Part shown: one piece after another, positions 3,157-14,998 of the stretch | How the letters are laid out: each line of letters opens with the position of its first letter | How positions within the stretch are numbered: position 1 is the first letter of the stretch | Assembly (NCBI GenBank): GCA_003491845.1 | Contig: DNBN01000214.1 | Coordinates: forward strand, 9,242-24,239 | Length of the DNA: 14,998 nucleotides | Source of the DNA: Porticoccaceae bacterium | Lineage (GTDB): Bacteria; Pseudomonadota; Gammaproteobacteria; Pseudomonadales; Porticoccaceae | Direction: 5' to 3' | The notes under the pieces: generated by a model | The model's database searches: none | What the model saw: the letters and a program-made list of their open reading frames with translations, nothing else | Told to the model about the DNA's origin: nothing | Program-made: the position numbers and the translations under genes

Positions 3157-4530
3157 ATGGCACTACAAAAAAAAGGAATGCATGGAGCTTGGACGAGTCG
3201 CTGGACATTTATTATGGCTGCGACAGGATCGGCTGTAGGTTTGGGCAATATGTGGAAATTTCCCTATGTCGCTGGAAGTAATGGCGGTGGAGCCTTTGTG
3301 CTAATTTATCTGGCATGTATCTTACTTATAGGTGTACCTGTGATGATGGCAGAGGTGCTTATTGGACGTCATGGCCGGCAGAGTCCAATTAATTCGATGA
3401 ACGAAGCGGTGCATGTTAGTGGCGCCGATTTGCGATGGCGCAGTGTCGGTTGGATAGGTGTTGTTGCTGGACTGTTAATCCTATCCTTTTATGCTGTTAT
3501 TGCCGGATGGGCCCTAGACTATATTTTGTTGATGTCTTCAGGAGAACTCCAGGGTATCAATGGTGCGACTGCCAGTGCAGCATTCGATAACTTATTGTCC
3601 AATCCAGGCCGGCTGATTGCTTGGCAAACATTATTTTTGATGCTGTGTGTCGGAGTGGTTATAGGGGGAGTTAAAAAAGGCTTAGGAATTGCCGTTGAAA
3701 CATTAATGCCGTTATTATTTTTGATGCTGTTGCTGTTGCTTGTATTTGCTGTGCTAAAAGGAAATTTTGCAGCCGCTGTTGGTTTTCTGTTCAGCTTTGA
3801 TTTGGATGCTCTCACGTGGCGTGGCGTGCTTGAAGCTATGGGACAAGCTTTTTTTACCTTAAGTATTGGTATGGGAGCTATTATGGCCTATGGTGCCTAC
3901 ATGCCGCAGGATGCAAATATTGGTAAAACCATTCTTATCGTTGCGTTTTTTGATAGCGCCGTTGCCATTATTTCAGGCCTTATTATCTTCTCAATTGTGT
4001 TTGCCACTCCAGGTATTGAGCCTAGTGCTGGTCCTGGACTCATGTTTATTAGTTTACCTGTGGCTTTTGGCGGTATGCCTGGTGGCCTTCTCATTGGAGC
4101 TCTATTTTTTGTATTGGTGTCTATTGCGGCGTGGAGTTCAGCGATTTCTCTACTTGAACCCTGTGTAGCCTGGCTAATGGAGGCGAAAAACATTAGCCGG
4201 GTCAAAGCGAATTTTATTATTGCAGGCGTAGCCTGGGTACTGGGATTAGGGAGTGTTTTCTCGTTTAATATTTGGGCTGATTATAAGTTTGCTGGCTTTA
4301 CTTATTTTGATTTCTTAGACTTCATTACTGCAAATATTATGTTGCCCATAAGTGGCTTACTGATCACCTTATTTGTAGGTTACTTAATTAAAAGAGACAT
4401 TATCGATACTGAAATGCAGGGTACCTCAGAACGAATCATACGATTATGGGAGCTTACAATAAAATATATCGCTCCCTTTGCTATTGCTCTGGTGTTTATT
4501 ATGGGTGTTTATGACAAATTTACCTCGTGA
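3157..4530 (+). CDS. Sodium:neurotransmitter symporter (NSS/SNF) family transporter
   Basis: An inner-membrane sodium-coupled importer, probably for amino acids, as in LeuT and MhsT; the exact substrate is unknown. The 457-aa length matches bacterial 11-helix members. TM1 carries GSAVGLGNMWKFPYVAGSNG (residues 24-43), with residues equivalent to the LeuT sodium ligands G20, A22, V23 and N27 present as G24, A26, V27 and N31. TM8 carries AAWSSAISLLEP, where the serines align with T354/S355 of LeuT, so both sodium sites look intact. The start is well supported: GAGAGG (3147-3152) is 4 bases before the ATG. ratA begins 13 bases after the stop codon, so the three genes up to 5315 are probably co-transcribed. 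The position between smpB and ratA is unusual. Confidence 0.95.
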   Translation: MALQKKGMHGAWTSRWTFIMAATGSAVGLGNMWKFPYVAGSNGGGAFVLIYLACILLIGVPVMMAEVLIGRHGRQSPINSMNEAVHVSGADLRWRSVGWIGVVAGLLILSFYAVIAGWALDYILLMSSGELQGINGATASAAFDNLLSNPGRLIAWQTLFLMLCVGVVIGGVKKGLGIAVETLMPLLFLMLLLLLVFAVLKGNFAAAVGFLFSFDLDALTWRGVLEAMGQAFFTLSIGMGAIMAYGAYMPQDANIGKTILIVAFFDSAVAIISGLIIFSIVFATPGIEPSAGPGLMFISLPVAFGGMPGGLLIGALFFVLVSIAAWSSAISLLEPCVAWLMEAKNISRVKANFIIAGVAWVLGLGSVFSFNIWADYKFAGFTYFDFLDFITANIMLPISGLLITLFVGYLIKRDIIDTEMQGTSERIIRLWELTIKYIAPFAIALVFIMGVYDKFTS

Positions 4531-10989: not shown

Positions 10990-11478
10990 CTATAGCTTTA
11001 CAATACCCTGATCGAGACAATTTGCCAACAAGTCAGTAACCGTTTTATTTTCAGTAATCAATAATTGAGGATCAATTTCTGACATTGGTAATAGCACAAA
11101 TGCTCGCTCAGAAATTCTAGGGTGCGGAATAGTTAATCGCGGCTTATTAAGCACTAATTTACCATAAATCAATATATCTAGATCAAGAGTTCTGGGCCCC
11201 CATCGCTGGTTTCGAATTCGCTCCTGATCGTTTTCGATAGTTTGCAGATAGTCAAGTAGATCAAGAGCAGACAGGCCAGTATTTAACCGAACAACTGCAT
11301 TGATATAATCTGGTTGATCTTGAGGTCCAATAGGATTTGTGCAGTAAAAAGAAGAACAAATTAGGTCATCTATCTTTGGATGCTCACGTAACACCTCAAG
11401 AGCCTTATTCAGTTGCTCTTTGGGATCCTCAAGATTGCCAGCAAGATTACTCCCCAAGCCAAGATAGACAACCTCCAT
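10990..11478 (-). CDS. folK: 2-amino-4-hydroxy-6-hydroxymethyldihydropteridine pyrophosphokinase FolK
   Basis: Transfers pyrophosphate from ATP to hydroxymethyl-dihydropterin in folate synthesis. All HPPK landmarks are present in 162 aa: YLGLGSNLAGN at the start, SSFYCTNPIGPQDQPDYINAV, the loop RNQRWGPRTLDLDILIYG with the Mg-binding D99 and D101, and HPRISERAFVLLPMSEI. Its ATG shares one base with the TAA of pcnB (TAATG), so the two are very likely translationally coupled. It supplies the folate pathway that provides the methylene-tetrahydrofolate used by PanB further along the same cluster. Confidence 0.97.
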   Translation of the reverse strand: MEVVYLGLGSNLAGNLEDPKEQLNKALEVLREHPKIDDLICSSFYCTNPIGPQDQPDYINAVVRLNTGLSALDLLDYLQTIENDQERIRNQRWGPRTLDLDILIYGKLVLNKPRLTIPHPRISERAFVLLPMSEIDPQLLITENKTVTDLLANCLDQGIVKL

Positions 11479-12833
11479 TAATCTTCAATGACCTTTTTTT
11501 TGCGTGAGTTACGACGTGGCCGCTTTTTACCGGATATTTTCCCAGCTGCATCTGACATCGCCTGCTTTTGCTCTTCATCGGATTCTTGATATTGAGTCCA
11601 CCATTCGCCCATTCCATTGAGATCTTCACCGGCTTGTTCTCGCAGTAAAATAAAATCATAGGCAGCCCGAAAGCGAGAATGTTCTAACAAGCGTTTTGCT
11701 CTTTGTCCTCCGCGCCGAGGTAGCTGCAGTTGTAAATCCCATATTTCTCGCATAGGAATGGTAAATCGTTTTGGAATGGCGGTGATCACTATTTGTCTGG
11801 ATATGGCTTCGCTAGCAGCTTTGCTAAGGGCATAAGTAGCTGAATTCCCTTTTTCCTGAAGCTGATTCGACAAGCGCTCTACTTCTGGCCAGAGTAATGC
11901 GGCATAAATAAAAGCAGGCGTCACTCGTTGATTAGAAGAAATCCGTAAATCAGTATTAATAAAAGCCTGCTCAATTAATTGCTTAGCATTGCTTTTACCA
12001 TTATTCATAAGGCGATCAGCCTGAGGAATTAAAGCGCCGAATACACTGTAGTTGCGCAGCAGGCTTAAGGTCACTGAACCCTTACCACTCATAAATAATT
12101 TAAGCGTTTCATCAAATAGCCTTGGTGGGGACACATGACTTAAATTATTAGCTAATTTAGCGATCGGTTTAGCTGTGCTTGGCTCTATCTTGAAGCCTAA
12201 TTTGGCAGTAAAACGAATGACACGCAAAATACGAACAGGGTCTTCGCGATAACGAGCATCAGGTACGCCTATCATCCTAATTATTCGGTTTTGTATATCT
12301 TCTAAGCCATTCGTAAAGTCATGAATAGTATTGTCTGTTGGATTATAGTACAGAGCATTTACAGTCAAATCCCTTCTTTGAGCATCTTCATTGATAGAGC
12401 CAAAAACGTTGTCTCTGGTGAGCATACCACTCTCATTCTGTTGCATCTGCGTAGAACGTGACGCTACTGTAGTACCATTACTTTGCTCATTAGAGCGAAA
12501 GGTAGTAACTTCGATGAGCTCTCTGCTGAGTTGTACATGGACTATTTGGAATCTTCTGCCTATGATCCTAGATCGTCGAAATAATGATTTAACTTCCGCA
12601 GGTTGGGCATCAGTGGCGACATCAAAATCTTTCGGGTGAATACCCAGTAGCAAATCTCGTACTGAGCCTCCAACAATATAGGCTTCATAGCCAGCTTTTT
12701 GTAGAGTACGAACAACCTTAATGGCATCTTTACTCATTGACGCTGGGTTTATCCCATACGTGTTTGCGTCTACGACTAGAGGCTTCGATGTTAGAGTTTT
12801 GGTGTCAAAAAAATTTACTATGCGCTTAAGCAT
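11478..12833 (-). CDS. pcnB: Poly(A) polymerase I
   Basis: Adds 3' poly(A) tails that promote RNA decay. The 451-aa length matches E. coli PcnB. The class II nucleotidyltransferase head is clear: YIVGGSVRDLLLG (53-64), KDFDVATDA with the catalytic D69 and D71, then IIGRRFQIVHV, the RRDLTVNALYYNP block and REDPVRILRVIRFTAKLGF. The C-terminal domain contains IPKRFTIPMREIWDLQLQLP, RAKRLLEHSRFRAAYDFILL and a basic tail (KKRPRRNSRKKK) of the kind that separates poly(A) polymerases from CCA-adding enzymes. The N-terminal MLKRIVNFF resembles that of E. coli, supporting this ATG, although no Shine-Dalgarno sequence is seen. It is the first gene of the pcnB-folK-kinase-panB run and is separated from the upstream regulator by a terminator. 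Confidence 0.96.
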   Translation of the reverse strand: MLKRIVNFFDTKTLTSKPLVVDANTYGINPASMSKDAIKVVRTLQKAGYEAYIVGGSVRDLLLGIHPKDFDVATDAQPAEVKSLFRRSRIIGRRFQIVHVQLSRELIEVTTFRSNEQSNGTTVASRSTQMQQNESGMLTRDNVFGSINEDAQRRDLTVNALYYNPTDNTIHDFTNGLEDIQNRIIRMIGVPDARYREDPVRILRVIRFTAKLGFKIEPSTAKPIAKLANNLSHVSPPRLFDETLKLFMSGKGSVTLSLLRNYSVFGALIPQADRLMNNGKSNAKQLIEQAFINTDLRISSNQRVTPAFIYAALLWPEVERLSNQLQEKGNSATYALSKAASEAISRQIVITAIPKRFTIPMREIWDLQLQLPRRGGQRAKRLLEHSRFRAAYDFILLREQAGEDLNGMGEWWTQYQESDEEQKQAMSDAAGKISGKKRPRRNSRKKKVIED

Positions 12834-12936
12834 TAATTTATAGTCAGAATGTTGTGAGCATAGTTTAACAGAGGACGTAGCCTTCGGTGTGACTTATTGC
12901 ATATTCACAGAGTAAAAGTCATCTTAATGTGAAATC

Positions 12937-12964
12937 AAAAAGAGGCTGCCTTTCGGCAGCCTCT
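12937..12964 (-). terminator. Strong intrinsic terminator between the response regulator and pcnB
   Basis: On the minus strand AGAGGCTGCC and GGCAGCCTCT form a perfect 10-bp GC-rich stem closed by a GAAA (GNRA) tetraloop and followed directly by TTTTT. It can only act on minus-strand transcripts, so it ends either the regulator message or, more likely, a separate small RNA made in the gap. The pcnB promoter must lie between it and 12834; I cannot pick one out there. Confidence 0.93.
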
Positions 12965-13025
12965 ATAGTGAGCTTTTAGGCGTAAGCCTTTCAAACCCTT
13001 TCGCAATCCATTATTATTATTGTTT
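12937..13025 (-). ncRNA. Candidate CrcZ-like small RNA (Hfq/Crc decoy)
   Basis: Predicted RNA of about 90 nt in the gap between the CbrB-like regulator and pcnB, exactly where Pseudomonas has crcZ. Its 5' part, starting near 13025, reads AAACAATAATAATAATGG, a run of AAN triplets matching the AANAANAA motif bound by the distal face of Hfq with Crc. Several further AAN units lie just upstream (to 13035) should initiation be earlier. The middle has a small AGGC/GCCT hairpin (TTAC loop), and the 3' end is the GNRA-loop terminator with a U-tract. No open frame of note fits inside. It is much shorter than the roughly 400-nt CrcZ of P. aeruginosa. Position, motif and terminator are seen; the decoy function is inference. 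Confidence 0.5.
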
Positions 13026-13031
13026 ATTGTT

Positions 13032-13061
13032 ATTATGTTTAATGCCACACACATGTGTCTA
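13032..13061 (-). promoter_or_regulatory. Sigma-70-type promoter for the candidate small RNA, with overlapping palindrome
   Basis: On the minus strand TAGACA (13061-13056, 5 of 6 to TTGACA) and CATAAT (13037-13032, 5 of 6 to TATAAT) are 18 bases apart. This puts the start near 13025. The 10-bp palindrome ACACATGTGT (13049-13058) overlaps the -35 and could be a regulator site. No GG-N10-GC sigma-54 promoter is present anywhere in 12965-13152. Confidence 0.5.
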
Positions 13062-13152
13062 ACTTAGTTTAATCAAAAAAGCTATTACTGCAAGACATTT
13101 AATTGATATTTTAAGAATACTTCGCTGTGAATTTATGTTTTTTTAGAACCAA

Positions 13153-14415
13153 TTATTTAACTGGCCTGGGAATGTTGAGTTTTTTACGTCGTTGCCAAAG
13201 GTTTTTTCGACTAATACCTAAATTTTGTGCAAGTTGAGTTTCACGCATTGTTTTTTGATTATCCAAGACATATTGAATAAAGTATTTCTCTAAAGATAGT
13301 GAATTACTATTTTCCGAGGTGGTTAGAGCTTCCTTGGCGATATTTTGTGTGTTGCTATTACCATTTATATACGCATGTAAATGTTCTGGAGAAATAATAC
13401 TTCCCTCATCTAATGTTAAAGCGACTTTATAGAGGGTGTTCTTTAGCTCGGTTATGTTACCTGGCCAGCTGTAGTTGGTTAATACTTTGATGCTTTCTTC
13501 GGAGATGTCGATTGGAAAACTTAGTTCCTGACTGACTTTCTCAATAAAATAATTTGCTAATTGGGCTATGTCTGAAGATCTTTCACGCAGCGCGGGAACC
13601 TCGATTTTGATTGCATTTACAGCTCGAAACAGATCCACTCTATAAGGGTCGTCAAGGCATAACATGTCTATATCTTTTGCTGTAGAGGCTATACAGTGTA
13701 TCTTAGAATTTCGTGTTAACTCAATTACAGCTCGTTGATGACTTTTTGCTAGACCACAAATATTAGCTAAAAACACAGTGCAAATACCTGTTTTTTCAGC
13801 TAGCTCGAGACTGTTTTTAAACTGCATATCCGATGCGCTAGGGCAATTGATAGTGATGAAGCGTTTTTCTTTTCGCTCGCTAATATTATGAATAGCCTGT
13901 GCTACAAGGCGCTTGCCTGTGCCTATTTCTCCCGCTATTAATATTGATAGATCAGTTGCAGCTGCTTTTCTTAATAGAGCGTGCGTAGCAATAATTTCTG
14001 TGCTGCTCCCCAGCAGTTGATCTATGCTGTTAAATGCCGTCATTTCACTACTTTTGTTGGCATACAAAATACGTTTAACCGATTGAACTAATTCTTCATG
14101 ATCAAACGGTTTAGATATATAGTCTACTGCGCCTTGGCGCATAATTTCTACCGCAGACCTTAGGCTAGCATAGCTGGTCATTATCAAAACAGGTACCTCA
14201 GGCGCAAGACGTATAAAGTCCCCCCCTGAGCCACCTGGAAGTCGTAAATCACTGACGATTAAATCAAAATTGTTCAAATTAAATCCACTTAAAGCTGCTT
14301 TGACACTGACAGCTTCACTAACTTTATAGCTTTGTCGCTCAAGTAGTTTGACAATAGATAACCTGATGATGTCTTCATCTTCTACGACTAAGATGTGATG
14401 GTTAGTTTTGTTCAT
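13153..14415 (-). CDS. cbrB: CbrB-like NtrC-family response regulator with a degenerate AAA+ domain
   Basis: A 420-aa regulator of receiver, AAA+ and Fis-type DNA-binding domains. The receiver (about 7-118) is intact: acidic E12/D13, phospho-acceptor D56 in FDLIVSDLRLPG, T80 in LIMTSYASLRSAVE, and K102 in SKPFD. It closely resembles Pseudomonas CbrB as I recall it. The AAA+ part (about 135-355) keeps a Walker A, GEIGTGKR (162-169). It lacks the GAFTGA loop: the stretch from NC (190) to Walker B is about 16 residues shorter than in PspF. Walker B DE is A217-N218, the second arginine finger is A265 (the first, R259, remains), and WPGNxREL is WPGNITEL (T322). The C terminus (about 372-420) has a Fis-type helix-turn-helix, NLGISRKNLWQRRKKL. 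It should bind DNA but probably cannot drive sigma-54 open complexes. The kinase gene is 74 bases upstream. Confidence 0.85.
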   Translation of the reverse strand: MNKTNHHILVVEDEDIIRLSIVKLLERQSYKVSEAVSVKAALSGFNLNNFDLIVSDLRLPGGSGGDFIRLAPEVPVLIMTSYASLRSAVEIMRQGAVDYISKPFDHEELVQSVKRILYANKSSEMTAFNSIDQLLGSSTEIIATHALLRKAAATDLSILIAGEIGTGKRLVAQAIHNISERKEKRFITINCPSASDMQFKNSLELAEKTGICTVFLANICGLAKSHQRAVIELTRNSKIHCIASTAKDIDMLCLDDPYRVDLFRAVNAIKIEVPALRERSSDIAQLANYFIEKVSQELSFPIDISEESIKVLTNYSWPGNITELKNTLYKVALTLDEGSIISPEHLHAYINGNSNTQNIAKEALTTSENSNSLSLEKYFIQYVLDNQKTMRETQLAQNLGISRKNLWQRRKKLNIPRPVK

Positions 14416-14444
14416 TTGATTAATTGTAGTTGAGCATATGTTGA

Positions 14445-14454
14445 CTATCGATAG
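14445..14454. repeat. 10-bp palindrome in the kinase-regulator gap
   Basis: CTATCGATAG, perfectly symmetrical, lies 30 bases before the regulator ATG, within the 74-base gap after the kinase stop codon. It could be a regulatory site or chance. No Shine-Dalgarno sequence precedes the regulator ATG. Confidence 0.3.
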
Positions 14455-14489
14455 CTGATGATACCATTTTAAAGACTGTCAGGTTGTTG

Positions 14490-14998
14490 TCAAAGTTTAT
14501 CAAAAATCAGCTTAACCGTGGTACCACGCTGACTATTCTCAGCTGGACTGAATATTGTTATTTGCGCGCCAAGACTTTTTACTAAATTAAATACTACCCA
14601 AAGTCCGAGGCCTGTTCCTTCACCAATATCTTTTGAAGTTACAAACGGCTCAAACAGTTTTGACTGCAAGTCTTCGGCAATGCCAGTACCTAAATCATTA
14701 ATTGTAACAATGATTTTTTTATCTTTAACGCTGGCTAGCATAGTAACCGTACTGTTTTTTGGCGATGCATCTCGGCTATTACTTAGCAAATTAAGAAAAA
14801 TTTGAATAAGCTGATGATAGTCTCCAAAAATATTTAGTGTTTGATCTATGGTGCATTGAAAGGTCACATTAGAGTGATTTTGGCCGAGAGTTAGCAGATT
14901 AATAGCTTCTTCTCCAGCCTCTTGTAAATTGACTTTTTTGAAATTTGCCTTGGTAAGTTCTCCTCCACGCGAGAAATTTATCAGCGACTCTACAATCT
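14490..14998 (-). CDS. Sensor histidine kinase, C-terminal part (cut by window edge)
   Basis: The frame is open from the right edge of the window and ends at 14490, giving about 169 residues of the C terminus. It begins inside the end of the dimerisation region (IVESLINFSRGGEL) and then shows a complete HATPase_c domain: N box FLNLLSNSRDASP, G1 box NDLGTGIAEDL, F box LFEPFVTSK and G2 box GEGTGLGLWVV. An internal GTG at 14867 is not the real start. The phospho-accepting His and the sensory domains lie outside the window, so I cannot say whether it has the SLC5 transporter domain typical of CbrA. The stop is 74 bases before the response regulator on the same strand, so the two are presumably a cognate pair; the gene order matches cbrA-cbrB of Pseudomonas. 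Confidence 0.93.
   Translation of the reverse strand, partial: IVESLINFSRGGELTKANFKKVNLQEAGEEAINLLTLGQNHSNVTFQCTIDQTLNIFGDYHQLIQIFLNLLSNSRDASPKNSTVTMLASVKDKKIIVTINDLGTGIAEDLQSKLFEPFVTSKDIGEGTGLGLWVVFNLVKSLGAQITIFSPAENSQRGTTVKLIFDKL

Follow-up and report, generated by a model that had tools for sequence, protein, structure and literature searches.

The window analyzed here is a stretch of 14,998 nucleotides from a Porticoccaceae bacterium, and our subject is the protein encoded at 13153–14415 of its reverse strand, the strand on which all window features described below are located. The synteny cbrA-cbrB-sRNA-pcnB-folK-panB (sRNA, small RNA) identifies this protein, which the first-pass annotation had called CbrB-like, as CbrB, the response regulator of a CbrAB-sRNA-pcnB locus in the marine SAR92/Porticoccaceae group. 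SAR92 bacteria are described as abundant in coastal seawater. We found that this CbrB has lost the motor parts of its AAA+ domain, that the loss is shared within a clade of three genera, and that no sigma-54 box precedes the sRNA of the window. The sequences suggest that CbrB has probably abandoned sigma-54 and acts instead at sigma-70 promoters, as a response regulator that binds DNA; the idea of repurposing is well supported, and the sigma-70 mechanism is likely. A wider proposition, which we advance tentatively and rate somewhat short of even, is that the whole two-component circuit switched its sigma factor, the CbrB motor and the sRNA promoter changing on the same branch and the AAA+ domain then being excised repeatedly and independently.

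Motor parts of the CbrB AAA+ domain

The uninterrupted open reading frame encodes 420 residues with a receiver domain, a degenerate AAA+ domain and a Fis-type helix-turn-helix (HTH) domain. The Pfam matches are Response_reg, a partial Sigma54_activat, an AAA lid and, under its Pfam cut-off, a weak match to the Fis HTH (residues 376–417, 13165–13290); Sigma54_activat covers profile positions 2–65 of 168 only, with 60.6 bits. The receiver (residues 5–118, 14062–14403) retains D56, T80 and K102. The AAA+ core remnant (residues 133–276, 13588–14019) keeps its fold in the predicted AlphaFold2 structure, and Walker A, GEIGTGKR, is in place (residues 162–169, 13909–13932). Two deletions in this domain emerged from alignment with relatives. 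One, after residue 203 (13806–13809), removed the GAFTGA-bearing L1 stretch; the other, after K238 (13701–13704), removed some 13 residues preceding sensor I (L2). The Walker B position is occupied by A217-N218 instead of D-E (13762–13767, within VFLANICGL). The first arginine finger, R259, is retained, and A265 stands at the second finger position (13621–13623; both within YRVDLFRAVN). T322 (WPGNITELKN) is found at the sensor II arginine in the lid (residues 277–350, 13366–13587). The first-pass annotation had named the missing GAFTGA and these substitutions, with intact receiver and DNA-binding domains in an unbroken frame; every residue was located by script where it had been placed. It had overlooked the L2 deletion, the retained Walker A, the AAA+-less relatives and the adjoining sRNA. 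VpsR structures were among the matches.

CbrB proteins were taken from 36 relatives, 98 genomes of the family, named contigs and fetched regions, and those having G[AS]FTGA were classed as canonical. Among 31 full canonical relatives (three partial or frame-broken rows excluded), both Walker B acids (D and E), the arginine of the second finger and that of sensor II were each present in 31/31. In the 31 degenerate proteins of the same-genus clade, both Walker B residues were lost (0/31 each), the sensor II R remained in 18, and Walker A kept its glycines in all 31 and its lysine in 26. GAFTGA was absent from the window and from all 36 rows of this clade; the rows comprise the 31 degenerate proteins and five short ones that lack the AAA+ domain. 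One additional row (L105) is truncated where its contig ends, and two named contigs (L048, L051) were assigned to the clade by tree, not by genus code.

Recent decay and sequencing error were both ruled out, as the loss recurs throughout the same-genus clade and in a 90%-identical metagenome-assembled genome (L040). Both deletions and the A-N, A and T residues are found in L040 as well, with K as its first finger, so the state of the window is not a sequencing error. The first-pass annotation had reasoned that relatives with intact GAFTGA would point to one of these causes. Such relatives do exist, but all of them lie beyond a clade of three genera; thus the loss is old. The two other non-canonical genera of the family are g19 (degenerate; L135, L136) and g23 (short; L151–L153). 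The canonical rows belong to g15, g16, g17, g21, g22, g24 and g27, with one short exception, L154 of g24, and no CbrB was extracted from g18, g20, g25 or g26. In a tree of pcnB, folK and CbrA, the non-canonical genera lie on one side of one branch (SH-aLRT 100); the trees were quick IQ-TREE runs without a mixture model, with long branches and a split outgroup flagged. These sequences place the loss of the motor parts in the ancestor of the three-genus clade. The receiver, the HTH and, in most clade members, the partner kinase and gene order are retained, and D56 is present in 39/39 degenerate and 9/9 short proteins.

The short proteins (182–210 residues; 182–193 inside the three-genus clade) consist of receiver and HTH without the AAA+ domain, in unchanged gene order. 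According to the tree, the domain was excised on three branches inside the clade and on one outside. The receiver-HTH order is, we assume, also that of ActR/PrrA/RegA. Membership of that family was considered and rejected: the NCBIfam model ActR_PrrA gave 52–61 bits against a cut-off of 250 (3/9 scanned), so the short proteins are taken as derivatives of CbrB.

Intact GAFTGA is also missing outside the family in L058, L059, L062 and L063 (Granulosicoccaceae and a Bugula symbiont), L055 and L056, where a CbrB-like protein lies beside a CbrA-like kinase and no adjoining pcnB was found. The loop was lost or altered there on other branches; three changes are needed on the CbrA tree, two of them forced by starred branches.

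We calculated the ratio of nonsynonymous to synonymous substitution rates (dN/dS, ω) by the Nei-Gojobori method with our own script, for pairs picked by eye from the tree. The ω of the AAA+ core was at most 0.33 in all 13 degenerate pairs, that of the HTH was 0–0.07 in 12 of the 13, and the reading frames are open in the same-genus rows. These codon comparisons indicate that the AAA+ remnant is under purifying selection. A vestigial CbrB, in a system being lost from streamlined genomes with an AAA+ domain drifting toward whole deletion, is improbable. It would agree with an AAA+ core ω reaching 5.6-fold the receiver value, with a lid ω of 0.55 in one pair (dS 0.08), with the five of 36 same-genus genomes that gave no match at E 1e-27, and with the absence of cbrAB at 18 sRNA loci. 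However, the low ω of core and HTH, the invariant D56 and the open frames all speak against it. Repurposing rather than decay, as first suggested together with the dN/dS comparison among close relatives, is supported by the purifying selection, by wide conservation and by a parallel change of the sRNA promoter.

The CA-rich sRNA and its promoter

A CA-rich sRNA (12937–13058, 5' end approximate) lies between cbrB and pcnB. It was matched by a covariance model, R1, and has a folding energy of −36.7 kcal/mol and a fold z of −4.39 for 12937–13066. It is composed of a 5' stem, an array of AANAANAA motifs (AATAACAATAAACAATAATAATAAT, 13010–13034), a conserved block near GGATTGCGAAAG, and an intrinsic-terminator-like hairpin with a T run (12937–12964), the last seen in alignment and folding. 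An alignment of 31 sequences showed two-sided changes at 8 of the 16 predicted pairs, each in at least one sequence. At E 0.01, R1 found the sRNA in 60 of the 98 genomes of the family, a count that includes weak matches near the limit and was obtained with stricter filters, under which weak matches are lost. By its place and motif, the sRNA is CrcZ-like. Rfam gave no CrcZ match in 12700–14998 of the window, with no Pseudomonas positive control run, and in 18 related loci no match reached the gathering score; canonical loci were among these, so Rfam does not discriminate here. Two tandem sRNA copies occur in four genomes of the group that has the sRNA without cbrAB (G041, G062, G075, G083). In L086, two sigma-54 boxes lie between cbrB and pcnB with CA-rich motifs after each, possibly tandem sRNAs.

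We compared the sRNA promoter with the state of CbrB at pcnB-linked loci. A sigma-54 box was defined as a score of at least 12.5 of 15.5 in the 80 bp preceding the CA array; both this score and the sigma-70 score use home-made weights on consensus letters, not trained matrices. The box was found in 22/24 canonical, 0/24 degenerate, 1/9 short and 0/18 cbrB-less loci, the last being loci where cbrB is missing at the sRNA and the search of the 98 genomes, which are drafts, gave no CbrB-grade match. The best score before the sRNA of the window is 8.5 of 15.5 (p = 0.725), that is, no box. Left out of the test were five named-contig duplicates (L122–L126), L105 (partial), L146 (frame broken) and L078 (canonical, no array, its pcnB lying 2.8 kb off), together with stretches without pcnB: L095 and L097 (degenerate, array present, no box), L104 (canonical, box), L085 (canonical, three motifs, no box), L087 (canonical, contig ending 365 bp past cbrB, no box or array), L140 (contig end), L053 and L055–L063. 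The cbrB-less set is without L166, where the contig ends just short of the sRNA, and L181, also at a contig end, whose genome carries cbrB on a different contig.

A sigma-70-like promoter was located by alignment and consensus score at 13066–13093 (−35 TTGCAG, spacer 16, −10 TAAACT); it is weak in the window and clearer in relatives. Of 29 aligned same-genus upstream regions, 26 have CTTG at one place, with a T/A-rich −10 sixteen or seventeen bases later. Across 13 close pairs, the identity of the sigma-70-like stretch was 79–97%, that of the array side 77–99%, and that of the sequence further upstream 56–96%. The sigma-70 score exceeded shuffles (first-order Markov resamples) at p 0.05 in 13/24 degenerate, 4/9 short, 6/18 cbrB-less and 1/24 canonical loci. 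From these sequences, the regulator and the sRNA promoter seem to have changed machinery together.

The half-sites TGTTAC and GTAACA are reported for CbrB of Pseudomonas putida (PMC6296734). Canonical loci contained 52 half-sites in 26 loci against 4.3 expected, with at least one in 25/26. Degenerate loci contained 16 exact half-sites in 26 loci against 1.2 expected, spread over 12 loci, and short loci 2 in 8 loci against 0.3 expected, in L154 only; the sequence available before short and many degenerate arrays is shorter than that before canonical ones. One degenerate subclade has a TGTTTC-N5-GTAACA palindrome about 105 bp before the CA array (CGTTTC in L097). Two genomes of 1.4 Mb (L089 in G005, L090 in G010) carry a degenerate CbrB with an altered receiver pocket and no adjoining cbrA, and exact half-sites are still found upstream of their sRNA.

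Loss of sigma-54 from the genome was considered and ruled out: rpoN was found in 34/36 genomes, the misses being G012 (71% complete) and G024 (75% complete). The window's own genome has four other activators (Sigma54_activat, 223–247 bits) with G[AS]FTGA and DE, and 30 sigma-54-like boxes versus 3 for the reversed pattern. Motor loss in this genome concerns CbrB among its activators. It might be supposed that CbrB serves sigma-54 promoters in mixed rings with an intact activator, as a brake or DNA-targeting subunit, for which the four activators, rpoN, the retained Walker A and the modelled AAA+ fold would provide the means. But no degenerate locus with an array has a sigma-54 box (0/24), and some relatives have no AAA+ domain at all, so this explanation is very improbable.

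A proposed route away from sigma-54

The departure of CbrB from sigma-54 may be explained as follows. In the ancestor of the three-genus clade, CbrB lost its sigma-54-facing loops and Walker B catalysis, and the receiver and HTH stayed. D56 would still be phosphorylated by CbrA and DNA bound by the conserved HTH, and CbrB, as a plain response regulator, would recruit or block sigma-70 RNA polymerase with no need of ATP-driven remodelling. What remains of the AAA+ domain, folded in the model and with its Walker A, may be a nucleotide-binding or dimerising spacer; it is presumably dispensable, because it was excised three more times inside the clade. The least certain step is that the sRNA is still a target of CbrB in the window's own lineage.

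CbrB may instead be mainly a repressor or modulator of other genes, with the sRNA constitutive on a sigma-70 promoter that freed CbrB from sigma-54; we consider this rather unlikely. In 18 loci (L162–L165, L167–L180) the order is dksA-like, gluQ-like, sRNA, pcnB (the first two names being our assumption from the sequence); cbrAB is gone and the sRNA is retained with no sigma-54 box, so CbrB is not required for the presence of the sRNA. Seven degenerate loci (L103, L129–L134) keep cbrB with no sRNA between it and pcnB. Their subclade, of the same genus, has a cbrB-pcnB gap of 89 bp in six loci and 166 bp in L133, and R1 found no match elsewhere in its six searched genomes (G045, G056, G064, G081, G110, G114). 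In some species, then, CbrB must act on targets besides the sRNA. No known CbrB site occurs in the window's lineage, and the GAFTGA-less NtrC of Caulobacter is reported to repress CtrA-activated genes at sigma-70 promoters (PMC10274813). On the other side, the palindrome of the degenerate subclade and the excess of exact half-sites in degenerate loci speak against this reading.

The loci with sRNA but no cbrAB, and those with cbrB but no sRNA, also weigh against the proposed route, as do several other results. Exact TGTTAC or GTAACA was found before the sRNA in none of the window, L040 and L046–L051. A genome-wide search for the CbrB palindrome gave 1 site versus 1 in the control, so no regulon is proposed. 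The sigma-70 score of the window is like that of shuffles (p = 0.375), and taken singly only the 13 degenerate, 4 short and 6 cbrB-less loci given above reach p 0.05 in their groups. Three canonical loci (L078, L085, L087) have neither a box nor a good array. Among four independent pairs comparing box with CbrB state, three agree, none opposes and one shows no difference (median p = 0.25), which is too few for significance; here L086 was scored as having a box, from its two boxes before arrays, though its picked array scores 10.5, and L084 (11.5) as a miss.

Two further groups of loci belong with these results. L154 (G046, 3778–4410 of its reverse strand) has lost the AAA+ domain by a clean in-frame deletion, yet a good sigma-54 box, scoring 14.5 of 15.5, is still present at its sRNA along with CbrB half-sites; motor loss can thus precede the promoter change. 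Nine loci of g17 (L139, L143, L144, L148, L150, L155–L158) and L088 have a canonical cbrB and a sigma-54 box with no adjoining cbrA, and their CbrB may run without its kinase. D56 is replaced by A in L148 and L150 and by E in L088. Because the other seven g17 loci retain the receiver residues, an intact receiver is not proof of phosphorylation by CbrA.

The locus, known systems and significance

The C-terminal part of the sensor kinase gene cbrA is located at 14490–14996, cut by the window end, and pcnB, which anchors the synteny downstream, at 11478–12833. The gene order was found in the window and in relatives wherever the contig was long enough. CbrA of the nearest relative, L040, has 961 residues with PAS, HisKA and HATPase domains, and no Pfam match to the SLC5 transporter domain at E 0.01 within its first 600 residues. 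The nearest named contigs are labelled Porticoccaceae, SAR92, HTCC2207 or Cellvibrionales. The window's genome is a draft of 341 contigs (92.4% complete). It encodes only two Exo_endo_phos proteins (L159, L160), the better being an exonuclease III match (353 bits); no separate Crc candidate was seen in this 92% complete genome, and Hfq is present (L161).

In Pseudomonas, crcZ is presumably followed by pcnB-folK-panB as well. The CbrAB-CrcZ system of Pseudomonas and Azotobacter resembles the present locus in its receiver, AAA+ and Fis HTH domains and in the published Pseudomonas order cbrA-cbrB-crcZ (PMC8871633). Pseudomonas CbrB is described as sigma-54 dependent, with Walker A and Walker B (PMC6296734, PMC8871633), whereas the window has lost GAFTGA, the L2 loop and Walker B, and its sRNA lacks a sigma-54 box. 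A 2022 review describes CbrAB as unique to the Pseudomonadaceae (PMC8871633). Within the window's family, outside the Pseudomonadaceae, L137–L148, L150 and L155–L158 have canonical CbrB, a CA-rich sRNA and a sigma-54 box, which stands against that description. In the literature covered, which included few subscription papers, no match was found for CbrB with SAR92 or CrcZ with Cellvibrio.

The NtrC proteins of Rhodobacter capsulatus and Caulobacter likewise belong to the NtrC family, lack the sigma-54 loop and are reported at sigma-70 promoters; they serve nitrogen control, Caulobacter NtrC requiring Walker A and Walker B and Rhodobacter NtrC requiring ATP binding (PMC10274813). Unlike both, the CbrB of the window lacks Walker B and has orthologues without any AAA+ domain. 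The Rhodobacter precedent offered by the first-pass annotation is therefore a loose fit: it shares the missing GAFTGA, but it requires ATP binding, whereas here the AAA+ domain is excised in relatives. VpsR, TyrR, DhaR and HupR also have defective GAFTGA; they belong to other families with other targets, and the source describes for them no series from intact to excised AAA+ domain at one locus (PMC3162934).

Regulators without GAFTGA are thus already known, and what is new here is the change of regulator and promoter on one branch with repeated excision of the motor. To leave sigma-54 and still keep a target is difficult, since it takes a change in both motor and promoter. The order of events is testable at this locus, since its gene order is fixed and intact, degenerate, AAA+-less and regulator-less states occur there in related species, each with its promoter. 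The CbrAB-sRNA locus is present outside the Pseudomonadaceae, and SAR92 gains a candidate carbon-control sRNA. If the proposed route is true, living species would display the intermediate steps from an NtrC-type activator to a receiver-Fis HTH regulator.
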